The notes beneath the pieces are model-generated. The model ran no database searches, was not told the origin of the DNA, and saw nothing but the letters and a program-made list of their open reading frames with translations. The position numbers and the translations under genes were made by a program. Positions 16,382-21,262 of a DNA stretch of 64,000 nt are shown here, piece after piece (the first letter of the stretch is position 1; every line of letters begins with the position of its first letter). The DNA lies in NCBI GenBank assembly GCA_000526255.1, contig JAFS01000002.1:124001-188000 (forward strand), in the 5' to 3' direction. This stretch comes from Verrucomicrobia bacterium LP2A (lineage in GTDB: Bacteria > Verrucomicrobiota > Verrucomicrobiia > Methylacidiphilales > Methylacidiphilaceae).

Positions 16382-16510
16382 ATGGACATCGCGACGCATC
16401 CGATGAAGCCGGCGACAGGCTGCCGGGTGGCCCTGCCGTTCGAGCCGCTGCCGACTTTTGCGCAGCTCCGCAACCAGATCTGTCCGCAACGGGAGGCGCC
16501 CCATGGCTGA
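16382..16510 (+). CDS. Possible 42-residue peptide upstream of the P-protein-like gene
   Basis: ATG 16382 opens 42 codons whose TGA (16508-16510) falls just inside the ATG of the next gene (ATGGCTGA). That overlap could couple translation. No clear Shine-Dalgarno precedes it, and the sequence matches nothing I know. It may be chance. Confidence 0.22.
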   Translation: MDIATHPMKPATGCRVALPFEPLPTFAQLRNQICPQREAPHG

Positions 16511-17375
16511 GCCGGCCACCTCGGAGCGGGAGATCGATCGGCTTCGCCGCAGGCTGGGCGGAATCGACCGTCAACTCCTGGAGCTTCTCAACCAGCGAAT
16601 GGATGTGGCCCGAGACATTGGAGAGTGGAAGCGACGGAATGGTCTCTTCCTCTTCGATGCGATCCGAGAGGAGGCGGTAATCGCAGATCTGATCCGGCGG
16701 AATTCCGGCTCCCTCTCCGATCGGGCGATCCGGGCGATCTTCCTGGAAATCTTTTCGAGCGCGCGAGGCCAGCAGGGTCTCCTCCGGATCGGCTGCGGCG
16801 GAGGAGCGGCCGGCCTCCTGGCCGCGCAGAACCGCTTCGGCGCATCCGATCACTTCCGCATGGTCCGATCCGCTGCGGAAGGACAGAGGCTGCTCACGGC
16901 GGAATCGATCGATATTCTGGTTCTCCCCAAGCAACGAGTGCTCGATCTTCCGTCCGTGCTCCGGCATAAATCCGGTGCGCGGCTGAGCTGGACCGTCTGC
17001 GGCGAGATCGATCCTCCGCATGCCCTCGCGTGCGGCCGGGCCGCTCGCTTCGGTTTCTACATCATCGGGCTCGGAGAGGAGTCGCCCGGTCCGCGGGAGC
17101 TTTCGGAAACCCAGAAAGCCGTCTTCCTCCTGGCGGGAGGTTCCAGGGAGTCGATCGATCGATGGGCGGACCGCTTGGGCGGCTGCTGGATTCGGAGAGG
17201 CGCGCGGGCGGGGATTGGGCAGCCGCCCGGCACGGCCGATCTCTCTGGCCTCTGGGAGGCGTTCGCCCCTCCTCCCCCGGAAGCGCTGCGGGAGCGTTGC
17301 CGAGAGATCTGCGGAAATTCCGCTTGGATCGTGCGCTTGGGGGCTTACCCTATACCTACCGTTGCCCGCTTATGA
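16503..17375 (+). CDS. Chorismate mutase with degenerate prephenate-dehydratase and ACT regions (P-protein-like)
   Basis: Residues 8-90 form an AroQ chorismate mutase: RLRRRLGGIDRQLLELLNQR, EWKRRNG and DAIREEAV keep the arginines, lysine and Asp-x-x-Arg-Glu of the active site. The rest follows P-protein (PheA) order but is worn: IGCGGGAAGLLAAQNRFG matches the GPEGTFSHxAAxxxFG segment, ARFGFYIIG stands where dehydratases have T-R-F-x-V-I-G, and IVRLGAYP resembles the end of the ACT domain. At 290 residues it is about 95 shorter than E. coli PheA. I infer an active mutase and a dehydratase that is probably dead. GGGAGG eight bases upstream supports ATG 16503. Its stop overlaps the next ATG as ATGA. 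Confidence 0.75.
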   Translation: MAEPATSEREIDRLRRRLGGIDRQLLELLNQRMDVARDIGEWKRRNGLFLFDAIREEAVIADLIRRNSGSLSDRAIRAIFLEIFSSARGQQGLLRIGCGGGAAGLLAAQNRFGASDHFRMVRSAAEGQRLLTAESIDILVLPKQRVLDLPSVLRHKSGARLSWTVCGEIDPPHALACGRAARFGFYIIGLGEESPGPRELSETQKAVFLLAGGSRESIDRWADRLGGCWIRRGARAGIGQPPGTADLSGLWEAFAPPPPEALRERCREICGNSAWIVRLGAYPIPTVARL

Positions 17376-17403
17376 GCAATCGACCCGGCAAGGGGGACCC
17401 GAA

Positions 17404-17705
17404 TTCGCGCTCGGAGAATTCCGAAAGGGGAACCACCCGGCCCCCCTCGCCTCCCGACGCGGTCCCAGGACGAGCGGTCCGCCCTGGATGTCGGGCGGCC
17501 GGCGAACGCACCGTCCACCTCGCCCGTTGTCTGGTTCGGAGCCGAGCGATCCCGAAGAGAGACGCACGGCTCCCTCGCCGGTCGAGGGCCGACCCGCGCC
17601 GACCGATCCCTTCCCGTCCCCGGCCGCATGGGAAGAGAAAGCTTCGAGCCTTCGGCAATCAACCGCCGTTTCCGACGAGGAGTTTCGCGAACAGGTGCTC
17701 GGCGA
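17404..17705 (+). repeat. Tandem duplication, copy 1 (302 bp, with one-base deletion)
   Basis: This copy matches 17706-18008 almost perfectly. I count three differences: a missing T in the C-rich run near 17441 (CGGCC-CCCCT against CGGCCTCCCCT), a G/A change, and a C/T change (Thr/Ile). The deletion makes this copy 302 instead of 303 bases and shifts the frame that starts at ATG 17372. Confidence 0.95.
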
Positions 17706-19140
17706 TTCGCGCTCGGAGAATTCCGAAAGGGGAACCACCCGGCCTCCCCTCGCCTCCCGACGCAGTCCCAGGACGAGCGGTCCGCCCTGGATGTCGGGCG
17801 GCCGGCGAACGCACCGTCCACCTCGCCCGTTGTCTGGTTCGGAGCCGAGCGATCCCGAAGAGAGACGCACGGCTCCCTCGCCGGTCGAGGGCCGACCCGC
17901 GCCGATCGATCCCTTCCCGTCCCCGGCCGCATGGGAAGAGAAAGCTTCGAGCCTTCGGCAATCAACCGCCGTTTCCGACGAGGAGTTTCGCGAACAGGTG
18001 CTCGGCGAAGAGAAGGCGACCAGACCCGGCATGAGCCGCGGCCTCTTGCTGGCCGCCTTTGCCCGCCTGCTCTTCTATAGCGCCGTAGCCGCCACGGGGC
18101 TCGGAACCTACTATTCCCTGCGCGAGACCCAGGTCGAAGGCCAGATCTTTCCGGGCAAGCTTCCCATGCCGGCCAAGGCGTATGTCGTCTACGACTTCTC
18201 GGGAGACGTCCGCGCCCTACGGCGAGATTGCGGAAGCTCGGTGGAGCCCTATCGGCAGACCGCCCAAAACGGCGAAACCAACCTGCAGCGCGTCCGCTCC
18301 GACCTGCTTGCCCAGCAGGAACGCCTCCGCCTCTTGAAGGAGCAGCTTCATGCCGCGGAAGAGGAGTTGAAGAACGTCGGGAAGGAGTCGCAGGAGAAGG
18401 GGAAGGAGCTTTGGGCGACGGAAGGGGCCGCGCTGGAGCGGGAATATGATGCGGTGGTCGCGGGGATCGAATCAAAGTTCCGGGAAAGGAGCAAGCAGAT
18501 CGGAATCCCGATCGAGGAAAAGGACCTTTCGATCCGTGCGCCCGAAGCATGGGCGAACGCCTACGAGCTGGCTCTCTACTCCGCCCCCCCCTCCGTCAAC
18601 GTGACAGAAGAGCGGAAATGGGCGGAAGAAGGTCTAAAGGTCTGGCACCAATTTCAAAGCAATTACGAGCAGAAGCAGCAGGCGCTGAAAAAGAAGACCG
18701 AGGAGATTCAGGAGCAGGTGGCACCGAAGGTGACGGAAATTCGGAATCAGATTTCTCTCCTTGAGGGACGGATCGCGGAATCCGAAGAGGAAATGGTGCC
18801 TCTCCAGCAGGAGTTTACGGGAAACCAGAACGAGCTGTCCGCAGCGACGGCGCAAGCGGAGATGGCGCGGGCTAATTTCCAGAAGCAGCTGCTCGAGCTG
18901 CCCCGACACTCGATCATTGCGACGATTCCGATCAGGGCGGACGGTCATTTTGAATGGCGACGGCTCGATCAGAACGGGCGCTTCCAGGCGGGACATTATT
19001 TTCTCTGGCTGGTGACGGAGGATGGAGGCCAGGAGTATTGGAGCCTCTTCCCCTTCTCGATTTCGCCCTATCGGAAAACAGAGATGATCGTACGAGCGAG
19101 CAGCTTTCTCCCGGTCCATCTGCTTTGGCAAGGCTTGTAG
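17488..19140 (+). CDS. Membrane-anchored coiled-coil protein with duplicated, frameshifted N-terminal region
   Basis: I do not recognise the family. The frame to 19140 encodes two Pro/Arg/Ser-rich repeats of about 101 residues ending in SDEEFREQVLG, then one membrane segment (LLLAAFARLLFYSAVAATGL, from about 18040), then a long coiled coil (about 18280-18900) rich in Gln/Glu/Lys, and a beta-rich tail (IIATIPIRADGHFEWRRLD to the end). The natural start is probably ATG 17372, which overlaps the preceding stop as ATGA. From there a one-base deletion in repeat copy 1 throws the ribosome into another frame that ends at 18034. ATG 17488, 17791 or 18031 would give intact shorter forms. Restoring one base gives an open frame of about 589 residues. 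It could be a fresh pseudogene, a phase-variable gene or an assembly error. Confidence 0.6.
   Translation: MSGGRRTHRPPRPLSGSEPSDPEERRTAPSPVEGRPAPTDPFPSPAAWEEKASSLRQSTAVSDEEFREQVLGDSRSENSERGTTRPPLASRRSPRTSGPPWMSGGRRTHRPPRPLSGSEPSDPEERRTAPSPVEGRPAPIDPFPSPAAWEEKASSLRQSTAVSDEEFREQVLGEEKATRPGMSRGLLLAAFARLLFYSAVAATGLGTYYSLRETQVEGQIFPGKLPMPAKAYVVYDFSGDVRALRRDCGSSVEPYRQTAQNGETNLQRVRSDLLAQQERLRLLKEQLHAAEEELKNVGKESQEKGKELWATEGAALEREYDAVVAGIESKFRERSKQIGIPIEEKDLSIRAPEAWANAYELALYSAPPSVNVTEERKWAEEGLKVWHQFQSNYEQKQQALKKKTEEIQEQVAPKVTEIRNQISLLEGRIAESEEEMVPLQQEFTGNQNELSAATAQAEMARANFQKQLLELPRHSIIATIPIRADGHFEWRRLDQNGRFQAGHYFLWLVTEDGGQEYWSLFPFSISPYRKTEMIVRASSFLPVHLLWQGL
17706..18008 (+). repeat. Tandem duplication, copy 2 (303 bp)
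   Basis: This is the in-frame copy, 101 codons long. It encodes SRSENSERGTTRPPLASRR through EEFREQVLG and leads straight into the membrane segment of the coiled-coil protein. The near-identity to copy 1 implies a recent duplication. Confidence 0.95.
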
Positions 19141-19227
19141 GCTAGCCTTCGTGATCCACCGGGCCGTTGGGATCGGATTTCGCAGCAACGCCAGGGTCTT
19201 CTTCGAGTGGGCTTGGGTCTACCTCAC

Positions 19228-20040
19228 TTACCGACGGGGAGGCCGCATTCTCCTCCGATCCGAGGGAACCGGAAGTCCGAGGCGACGCAGCCCACGGGCG
19301 AGCTCCTCGGCCGAGGGTTGACCCGGGGCGGCCGGCTCGTCCAGGTAGCCATAGACCAGCTCGCTTCCCAGGGCGGAGAGGACGATGCGGGAGAGCGCGG
19401 CCCACGGTCCCAACCCCATGAGGGCCCACGCTTGGGATTGATGTTCCAGCAGCACCCGCGCCAGCGAACGAAGATCTTGGGGCTCGCGAAGCCGTAGAGC
19501 GATCTTCGCCCAGTCCGGCTGAGCCTCTTCCAGCAAGGAGCAATACTCCCGAATCCGCCCCTCGCCGGGACTGCCCTCCAGCCAATGAACGGAAAGAATG
19601 CGCCACTTTCCTTCCGCTCGCGCACGCTCCCACCAGCACCGCAATGGCTCGAGGGAGCGATATTCCAGGTCGAGGGCGTCGATCACGGGGAAAAACTCTT
19701 CGAGCAGCCGCTCCCTCTCCCCTTCCGGCCAATGTCGCCGTCCTCCCTCTTCGGGAGCACGCAGCGTCAGAAGAGCGGGTCTGGCCCGCTCCGCCAAGGA
19801 GGCGCGCAGATCCCGGAGGGGAACCCCGGCTTCCCGCAGGGCGTCGAGCCGGATTTCCACCAAGTGGGCGGGCGACTCGGCCCGCAGAAAGGGCAGGCCT
19901 TCGGCCGTGGTGACGGTCCCGACAATCCACGGCCCCTGCGGCCACCCCTCCTCCCCGTCTCGCCTCGGCTCAACCGCTCTTTCCATGGCTCCCTTTGCAT
20001 CCCCGGGTCGCCTGCGAGAGACTCCGAGATCTTTCCCCAA
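19228..20040 (-). CDS. aroD: Type I 3-dehydroquinate dehydratase
   Basis: AroD dehydrates 3-dehydroquinate in the shikimate pathway through a Schiff-base lysine. The sequence shows the type I pattern: VGTVTTAEGLPFL, HLVEIRLDAL (substrate-site Glu/Arg), LLTLRAPEEGGRRHW, IDALDLEYRSL, the catalytic His in ILSVHWLEGSPGEG, the Schiff-base Lys in DWAKIALRL, MGLGPWAALSRI and APGQPSAEEL. The length of 270 is slightly over the norm because of a 30-40-residue N-terminal tail; ATG 19986 would remove 18 residues. It diverges from mreB and converges with the coiled-coil gene. Confidence 0.9.
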   Translation of the reverse strand: MGKDLGVSRRRPGDAKGAMERAVEPRRDGEEGWPQGPWIVGTVTTAEGLPFLRAESPAHLVEIRLDALREAGVPLRDLRASLAERARPALLTLRAPEEGGRRHWPEGERERLLEEFFPVIDALDLEYRSLEPLRCWWERARAEGKWRILSVHWLEGSPGEGRIREYCSLLEEAQPDWAKIALRLREPQDLRSLARVLLEHQSQAWALMGLGPWAALSRIVLSALGSELVYGYLDEPAAPGQPSAEELARGLRRLGLPVPSDRRRMRPPRR

Positions 20041-20070
20041 GGAAGTTCCCTGCGGACCAGACGAGTCGGA

Positions 20071-20099
20071 TTGACCGAGGCTTTCCTTTTTTCTAGCAA
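20071..20099 (+). promoter_or_regulatory. Promoter for the mreB cell-shape operon
   Basis: TTGACC (20071-20076) and TAGCAA (20094-20099) are separated by 17 bases, 35 bases before the mreB GTG. A T-rich spacer and a TTTTTTTT tract at about 20110-20117 follow. Confidence 0.5.
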
Positions 20100-20134
20100 T
20101 CCAGGCCCTTTTTTTTCAAGCTACGGTTGCGCCC

Positions 20135-21262
20135 GTGAATAATCCTCCCCTCCTCGAACCGACTTCCCCGAAAGAAGCCTCTTTCTCTCCGGAACAAAGC
20201 AACCCCGGCAAACGCTTGTCGCCCCAACTATGGGATTGGGCATCGTCCGCGCTTGCCAACGACATCGGCATCGACCTCGGAACAGCGAATACCCTGATCT
20301 ACATTCGCGGCAAGGGTATCGTCCTGCGAGAGCCTTCGGTCGTCGCGGTGCACTCCGCGACCAAGCAGGTGGTAGCTGTCGGGGGAGAGGCCAAGCGGAT
20401 GCTGGGCCGCACCCCGGGGAACATCCAGGCGATCCGTCCTCTGAAGGACGGGGTCATCGCAGACTTCCATCTCACCGAAGAGATGCTCAAGGCCTTCATC
20501 CGCAGAGCTCAAGCAAAGATCTTCTTCCGGAGGCCGAGGATCGTCATCGCCGTGCCGAGCGGGATCACGGAAGTTGAGAGAAGGGCCGTCGAGGAGTCGA
20601 CGCGGCAGGCCGGCGCCCGGGAAGTCTACTTGGTCGAGGAGCCGATGGCGGCGGCCATCGGGGTGGGGCTCCCCATTCAAGAGGCTTCCGGCAACATGAT
20701 CGTCGATATTGGTGGGGGGACCACCGAGGTGGCGATCATCTCCCTCTCCGGCATCGTCTACTCCCGGAGCGTCCGGGTCGCCGGCGATGAGCTCGACGAG
20801 AGCATTTCCAATTATCTCCGCCGAGCCTACAACCTGATGATCGGCGAGCGCACGGCCGAAGAGATCAAGATGCGGATCGGTTCCGCCCACCCGCTCGAGA
20901 CCGAGACCGTCATGGAGGTGCGCGGACGGGATCTCGTCGCCGGTCTTCCGAAGACCTTGACCGTCACTTCCCAAGAGGTACGGGAAGCCATGATGGAATC
21001 GCTTTCCGTGATCGTCGAGTCCGTCCGAATCACCCTGGAACGCTGCCCTCCGGAACTCTCCGCCGATCTTCTCGAACGGGGCGTGGTCCTGGCGGGAGGC
21101 GGTGCTCTTCTGCGCGGCCTCGACCGCCTGCTGACGGAAGAGACTTCCCTGCCCGTGCATGTCGCCGAGGACCCGCTCAGCGCGGTCGCCGAGGGCACCG
21201 GGAAGATCCTGGAAGAGTATTCGGTTCTCAAGAAAGTCGCCCGGGCGGAAGCTCGTCGTTAA
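20135..21262 (+). CDS. mreB: Rod-shape-determining actin homologue MreB
   Basis: MreB filaments guide side-wall peptidoglycan synthesis from the inner membrane. The actin-fold signatures are all present: [14 protein letters not shown] (phosphate 1), [43 protein letters not shown] (phosphate 2) and [12 protein letters not shown] (adenosine motif). GTG 20135 gives an N-terminal extension of about 40 residues, rich in Ser/Pro/Glu, compared with the usual MreB start near the IGIDLG strand. It heads a unit with mreC, mreD, mrdA, rodA and rng. Confidence 0.97.

Follow-up and report, generated by a model that had tools for sequence, protein, structure and literature searches.

The locus described here raises the question of why a gene should open with two near-identical tandem copies of one segment, the first of them a single base short, and whether this arrangement marks a phase-variable gene, a recent pseudogene or an assembly error, the three readings between which the original prediction had left it. 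It lies in a window of 64,000 nucleotides (the whole stretch of DNA analyzed) from a member of Methylacidimicrobium, as its relatives place it, a methane-eating bacterium whose assembly comprises 2.47 Mb in three contigs. We consider it likely that the duplication is a recent and essentially in-frame doubling of 101 codons in the disordered tail of an order-specific membrane protein, that such events are a habit of the family, and that the frameshift is a separate matter.

Features of the duplicated-tail gene and its upstream neighbor (window coordinates)
Feature	Position	Strand	Basis
Upstream gene, N-terminal chorismate mutase type II domain	16458..17375	+	Pfam PF01817, E 2e-18; ORF list
Whole gene, comprising the duplicated tail (frame lost beyond 17441), a TM helix, the coiled-coil hairpin and a beta domain	17372..19140	+	
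Tandem tail copy 1, 302 bp, one base short	17404..17705	+	TRF and direct alignment
Tandem tail copy 2, 303 bp (101 codons)	17706..18008	+	TRF and direct alignment
C6 run of copy 1, short by one base (frameshift site)	17441..17446	+	
ATGA, shared by the stop of the shifted 220-codon ORF and an in-frame ATG shortly 5' of the TM helix	18031..18034	+	
Predicted TM helix, model residues 11-38	18037..18120	+	AlphaFold2 model; TM assigned by inspection
Antiparallel coiled-coil hairpin of two ~100-residue helices, model residues 65-302	18199..18912	+	AlphaFold2 model
C-terminal beta domain, model residues 303-362	18913..19092	+	AlphaFold2 model

The gene begins at an ATG that overlaps the TGA stop of the upstream chorismate-mutase gene as ATGA, and a chorismate-mutase gene also precedes the family gene in the Methylacidimicrobium relatives. 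Translation from this start runs in the wrong frame after the C6 run and ends at TGA 18032-18034, and the frame encoding the remainder of the membrane protein is open from 17020 to 19140. The coupled start, the premature stop and the open downstream frame are thus all as originally predicted, and the calculation that one added base would give a protein of about 589 residues is correct. We also note that the upstream gene has its chorismate mutase domain without recognized prephenate dehydratase or ACT domains, and that the gene in the same position in genus g12 (L093-L095) resembles, by eye, a pheA with an ACT domain. A rearranged second copy of the 3' end of our gene and of the adjacent aroD region is present elsewhere in the same genome (G000:C1:720001-723500), where it adjoins an NADH-dehydrogenase-like gene and is 83-92% identical to window positions 19042-20188.

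The two tandem copies and the count of three differences between them, originally made by eye, hold up by both methods used. TRF reports a single 303-bp period with 2.0 copies and a 99% match, and in the direct alignment one indel and two substitutions account for all three differences. The indel sets GG-CCCCCC-T in copy 1 against GG-CCTCCCC-T in copy 2 (17743-17749), and the substitutions are G17461/A17764 and C17603/T17906; A17764 and T17906, both in copy 2, look derived because the closest sister genome (G004) agrees with copy 1 at these positions. The duplication appears to be recent, since the copies differ by two substitutions in 302 bp, as against about 54 in 303 between the tails of our genome and G004. 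The repeat covers almost exactly the disordered proline-rich tail of the protein. Microhomology at the junction amounts to 1 bp here and to none in a comparable duplication in a sister metagenome-assembled genome (G001, described below), in both cases by inspection, and the two duplications therefore look illegitimate.

The protein to which this tail belongs is conserved but uncharacterized. Of 60 relatives sampled, all within the order of the window's own host, 56 have the family, including all 28 of the high-quality ones; in a 194-genome sample of the phylum only the seven members of this order are positive, and it was detected in none of the other 187 genomes. Searches of Pfam, NCBIfam and the PDB returned no informative family and generic coiled-coil matches only. 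An AlphaFold2 model built from 28 sequences (mean pLDDT 87.7) shows a TM helix, a short beta part, a hairpin of two helices of about 100 residues each and a C-terminal beta domain, in keeping with the coiled-coil membrane protein that had been proposed. A TM helix, a coiled coil and a C-terminal domain of the WRRL...YWSLF type recur throughout the 28-member alignment and in the 56 relatives, and the window protein shares these features of the family. The tails 5' of the TM helix, in members with sequence there, are mostly proline-rich and of low complexity, and range from about 40 to more than 1,200 residues. The C-terminal membrane part is under strong purifying selection and does not decay: its dN/dS is 0.10 (about 0.35 in the tail), and changes on our own branch (8 nonsynonymous, 19 synonymous) are like those on the G004 branch (7 and 23). 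From the position of the TM helix, the tail is probably cytoplasmic and the coiled coil periplasmic, and the shape of the model suggests that the protein most likely serves as a coiled-coil spacer or adaptor, anchored in the membrane and tolerant of changes in tail length.

Comparison with sister genomes, proposed originally as a check, places the duplication in a wider context. G004, whose C-terminal part is 95% identical, and M. thermophilum AP8 (G005) each have one intact in-frame tail copy behind the same coupled start. In G001 almost the same tail segment is duplicated in tandem, with a unit of 327 bp (109 codons) and five differences in 271 bp between the copies; the junctions differ from ours at both ends, and this duplication therefore arose independently. 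A further relative, G002, has a single tail copy, which is possibly a collapsed short-read assembly. In M. tartarophylax (G006) one contig runs out at MSTRSDKGDP and another picks up at GEEKTTK, close to where the repeat begins and ends, with the intervening segment missing. That assembly was made with a 36-cycle Illumina kit and contigs under 500 bp were dropped (PMC7163025); such a break is as expected for a repeat under very short reads and a 500-bp cut-off, and it is a gap rather than a repeat that has been seen. The reads of that study are deposited as two runs, ERR3674889 and ERR3675335. Across 37 family genes, strong tandem repeats (TRF score of 90 or more) occur in the tails of five genomes, with periods of 303, 327, 99, 90 and 15 bp that are all multiples of three, the in-frame examples including 4.1 copies of 99 bp in G048 (L076) and 2.4 copies of 90 bp in G042 (L080), and none occurs in the 38 kb of C-terminal coding sequence of the same genes. 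Periods in whole codons may simply be what survives selection. Beyond the original prediction, the segment doubled here proves to be the disordered tail of the family, which has undergone independent duplication in related lineages. Two further tails show apparent frame disruptions: the orthologue in M. kamchatkense Kam1 (G011; L011/L097) apparently lacks one base between tail and TM helix when set against two close relatives, and in G037 (L102), a fragmentary metagenome-assembled genome left out of the counts, the proline-rich tail is apparently out of frame with the membrane part.

There are several plausible readings of the repeat and of the missing base to consider. The tandem duplication could be an assembly artefact generated from one copy, for the 1% or so by which the copies differ is within what read error could produce and the duplication is seen in one assembly of the host species. 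We nonetheless regard this as unlikely, given the independent duplication of the same segment in a related species, the in-frame repeats in other family tails, the distance of the site from contig ends, and the fact that both substitutions fall in copy 2 and are GC-to-AT transitions. The suggestion that a repeat together with a homopolymer marks a phase-variable gene, with either the C-run or the repeat as its switch, draws on the closeness of the run to the 5' end and on the C8 at the same place in G004 and G005, but we find it unsupported and judge it quite improbable. The intact unit is 101 codons long, so gain or loss of a copy leaves the frame unchanged, and switching by the 303-bp repeat is rejected on that ground. 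The tract is only C6 in copy 1 and is interrupted in copy 2, which falls short of a hypermutable repeat, although shorter tracts can vary: in a survey of Neisseria the predominantly variable tracts were of eight or more, with switching of C5/C6 also at one locus (PMC5084427). Runs of C8 or G8 are ordinary in these genomes (six in 144 kb of our own and eight in 160 kb from the sister), those congeners whose sequence covers the C-run site are in frame there, and the protein has no known surface role. Programmed -1 frameshifting on CCC CCC could in principle restore the full-length protein, as slippage of the P-site tRNA on C6 would return translation exactly to the frame of RPPLASRR; we find this scarcely credible, however, because congeners read through the site in frame, so that the signal lacks conservation, and a search for a stimulatory RNA structure downstream gave no stable fold (z 0.83).

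The one-base lesion is more evenly poised. The original prediction of a missing T is right in that copy 1 is one base short in the C-run, but T is only one of two readings: G004 and G005 have CCC CCC at this site (giving a C8 run), whereas G001, G002 and copy 2 have CCT, so the difference could also reflect a C7-to-C6 contraction in copy 1 together with a C-to-T substitution in copy 2. A comparison of this region with about 104 sister genes (some 40,000 codons) confirmed no other frameshift of the kind. Apparent frameshifts elsewhere in the 144 kb compared were explained otherwise where inspected, one by a start downstream of a tRNA and two by diverged sequence at gene starts, and in an apparent transposase case it is our genome that has the intact copy; the other cases, too, are at gene 5' ends. 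The lesion thus stands isolated in a clean assembly. Residual consensus error, which would leave the gene intact with a double-length tail, has in our estimate somewhat under an even chance. It fits the presence of the gene in nearly every relative, the strong selection on the membrane part without decay on this branch, and the location of the lesion within a C-run inside a near-identical repeat, but the cleanness of the assembly speaks against it, as does the position of the site 37 bp from unique flank, where ordinary reads could place it. We give the same odds to a real and recent frameshift, by which the strain would have lost the tail and either lost the protein or kept a form without the tail, made by reinitiation at ATGA 18031. 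Here the clean assembly is in favor, as is the tolerance of the tail to change evident in its dN/dS. The PacBio-only Kam1 genome, with its own apparent tail frameshift, can be cited for either reading; its authors regard another of their frameshifts as possibly an error. Termination-reinitiation at ATGA overlaps has general support (PMC6728339), but such an overlap is found at 17% of shifted stops by chance, so that a function for ATGA 18031 argued from its position is unsupported, and ATG 18031 is not kept in all congeners. The downstream part, too, does not yet show a relaxation of selection. The proposal of a recent pseudogene accordingly stands insofar as the reading frame is lost in the assembly as given, but decay is not seen, since the downstream part has no stops and retains its selective constraint; a very recent gene loss would leave no signal of relaxed selection yet.

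We therefore return to in-frame tail duplication as the preferred account. A weakly constrained tail would lengthen repeatedly by illegitimate tandem duplication in frame, while the membrane and coiled-coil part would stay conserved as tail length changes. The loss of one base in copy 1 would be a lesion separate from the duplication, and may be either a frameshift that arose recently in the culture that was sequenced or an error of the consensus, two options to which we give roughly equal weight. If the frameshift is real, translation would terminate at the shifted stop and may restart at the overlapping ATG, yielding the membrane part without its tail. A more elaborate scheme, in which repeat recombination, frameshifts and ATGA reinitiation make the tail an adjustable copy-number module with long-tailed, single-tailed and tail-less forms in natural methanotroph populations, is in our view a long shot. 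An order-wide, uncharacterized membrane protein whose tail is repeatedly rebuilt by in-frame duplication offers a natural series for the effects of tail length, and the tail region may also be a point at which assemblies of this group from short reads break.

The system resembles several known ones in part. With EmrA-type periplasmic adaptors it shares a TM helix, a small beta part and a long alpha hairpin, and EmrA (4tko) aligns with the model over 181 residues (Z 9.9, rmsd 5.2), a Z score that unrelated long helices also reach. Among the Pfam and NCBIfam results shown there is no HlyD/EmrA adaptor family, the fold matches are to generic long coiled coils, and the window protein differs from EmrA in having no recognized lipoyl domain or sequence match and in carrying a long proline-rich N-terminal tail. 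Like homopolymeric contingency loci, the gene has a C-run close to its 5' end and a product that is out of frame, but here the tract is short, no partner state has been observed among the species compared, the repeat unit is frame-neutral, and the protein is not a known surface structure. The likeness to in-frame repeat expansion of disordered tails extends to units of whole codons, a weakly constrained proline-rich region, several independent events and an untouched folded part; the differences are that the unit here takes in almost all of the tail (101 or 109 codons) and that copy 1 in the window is out of frame by the loss of one base. The event is thus of an ordinary kind, an in-frame tail duplication in an uncharacterized, order-specific membrane protein.
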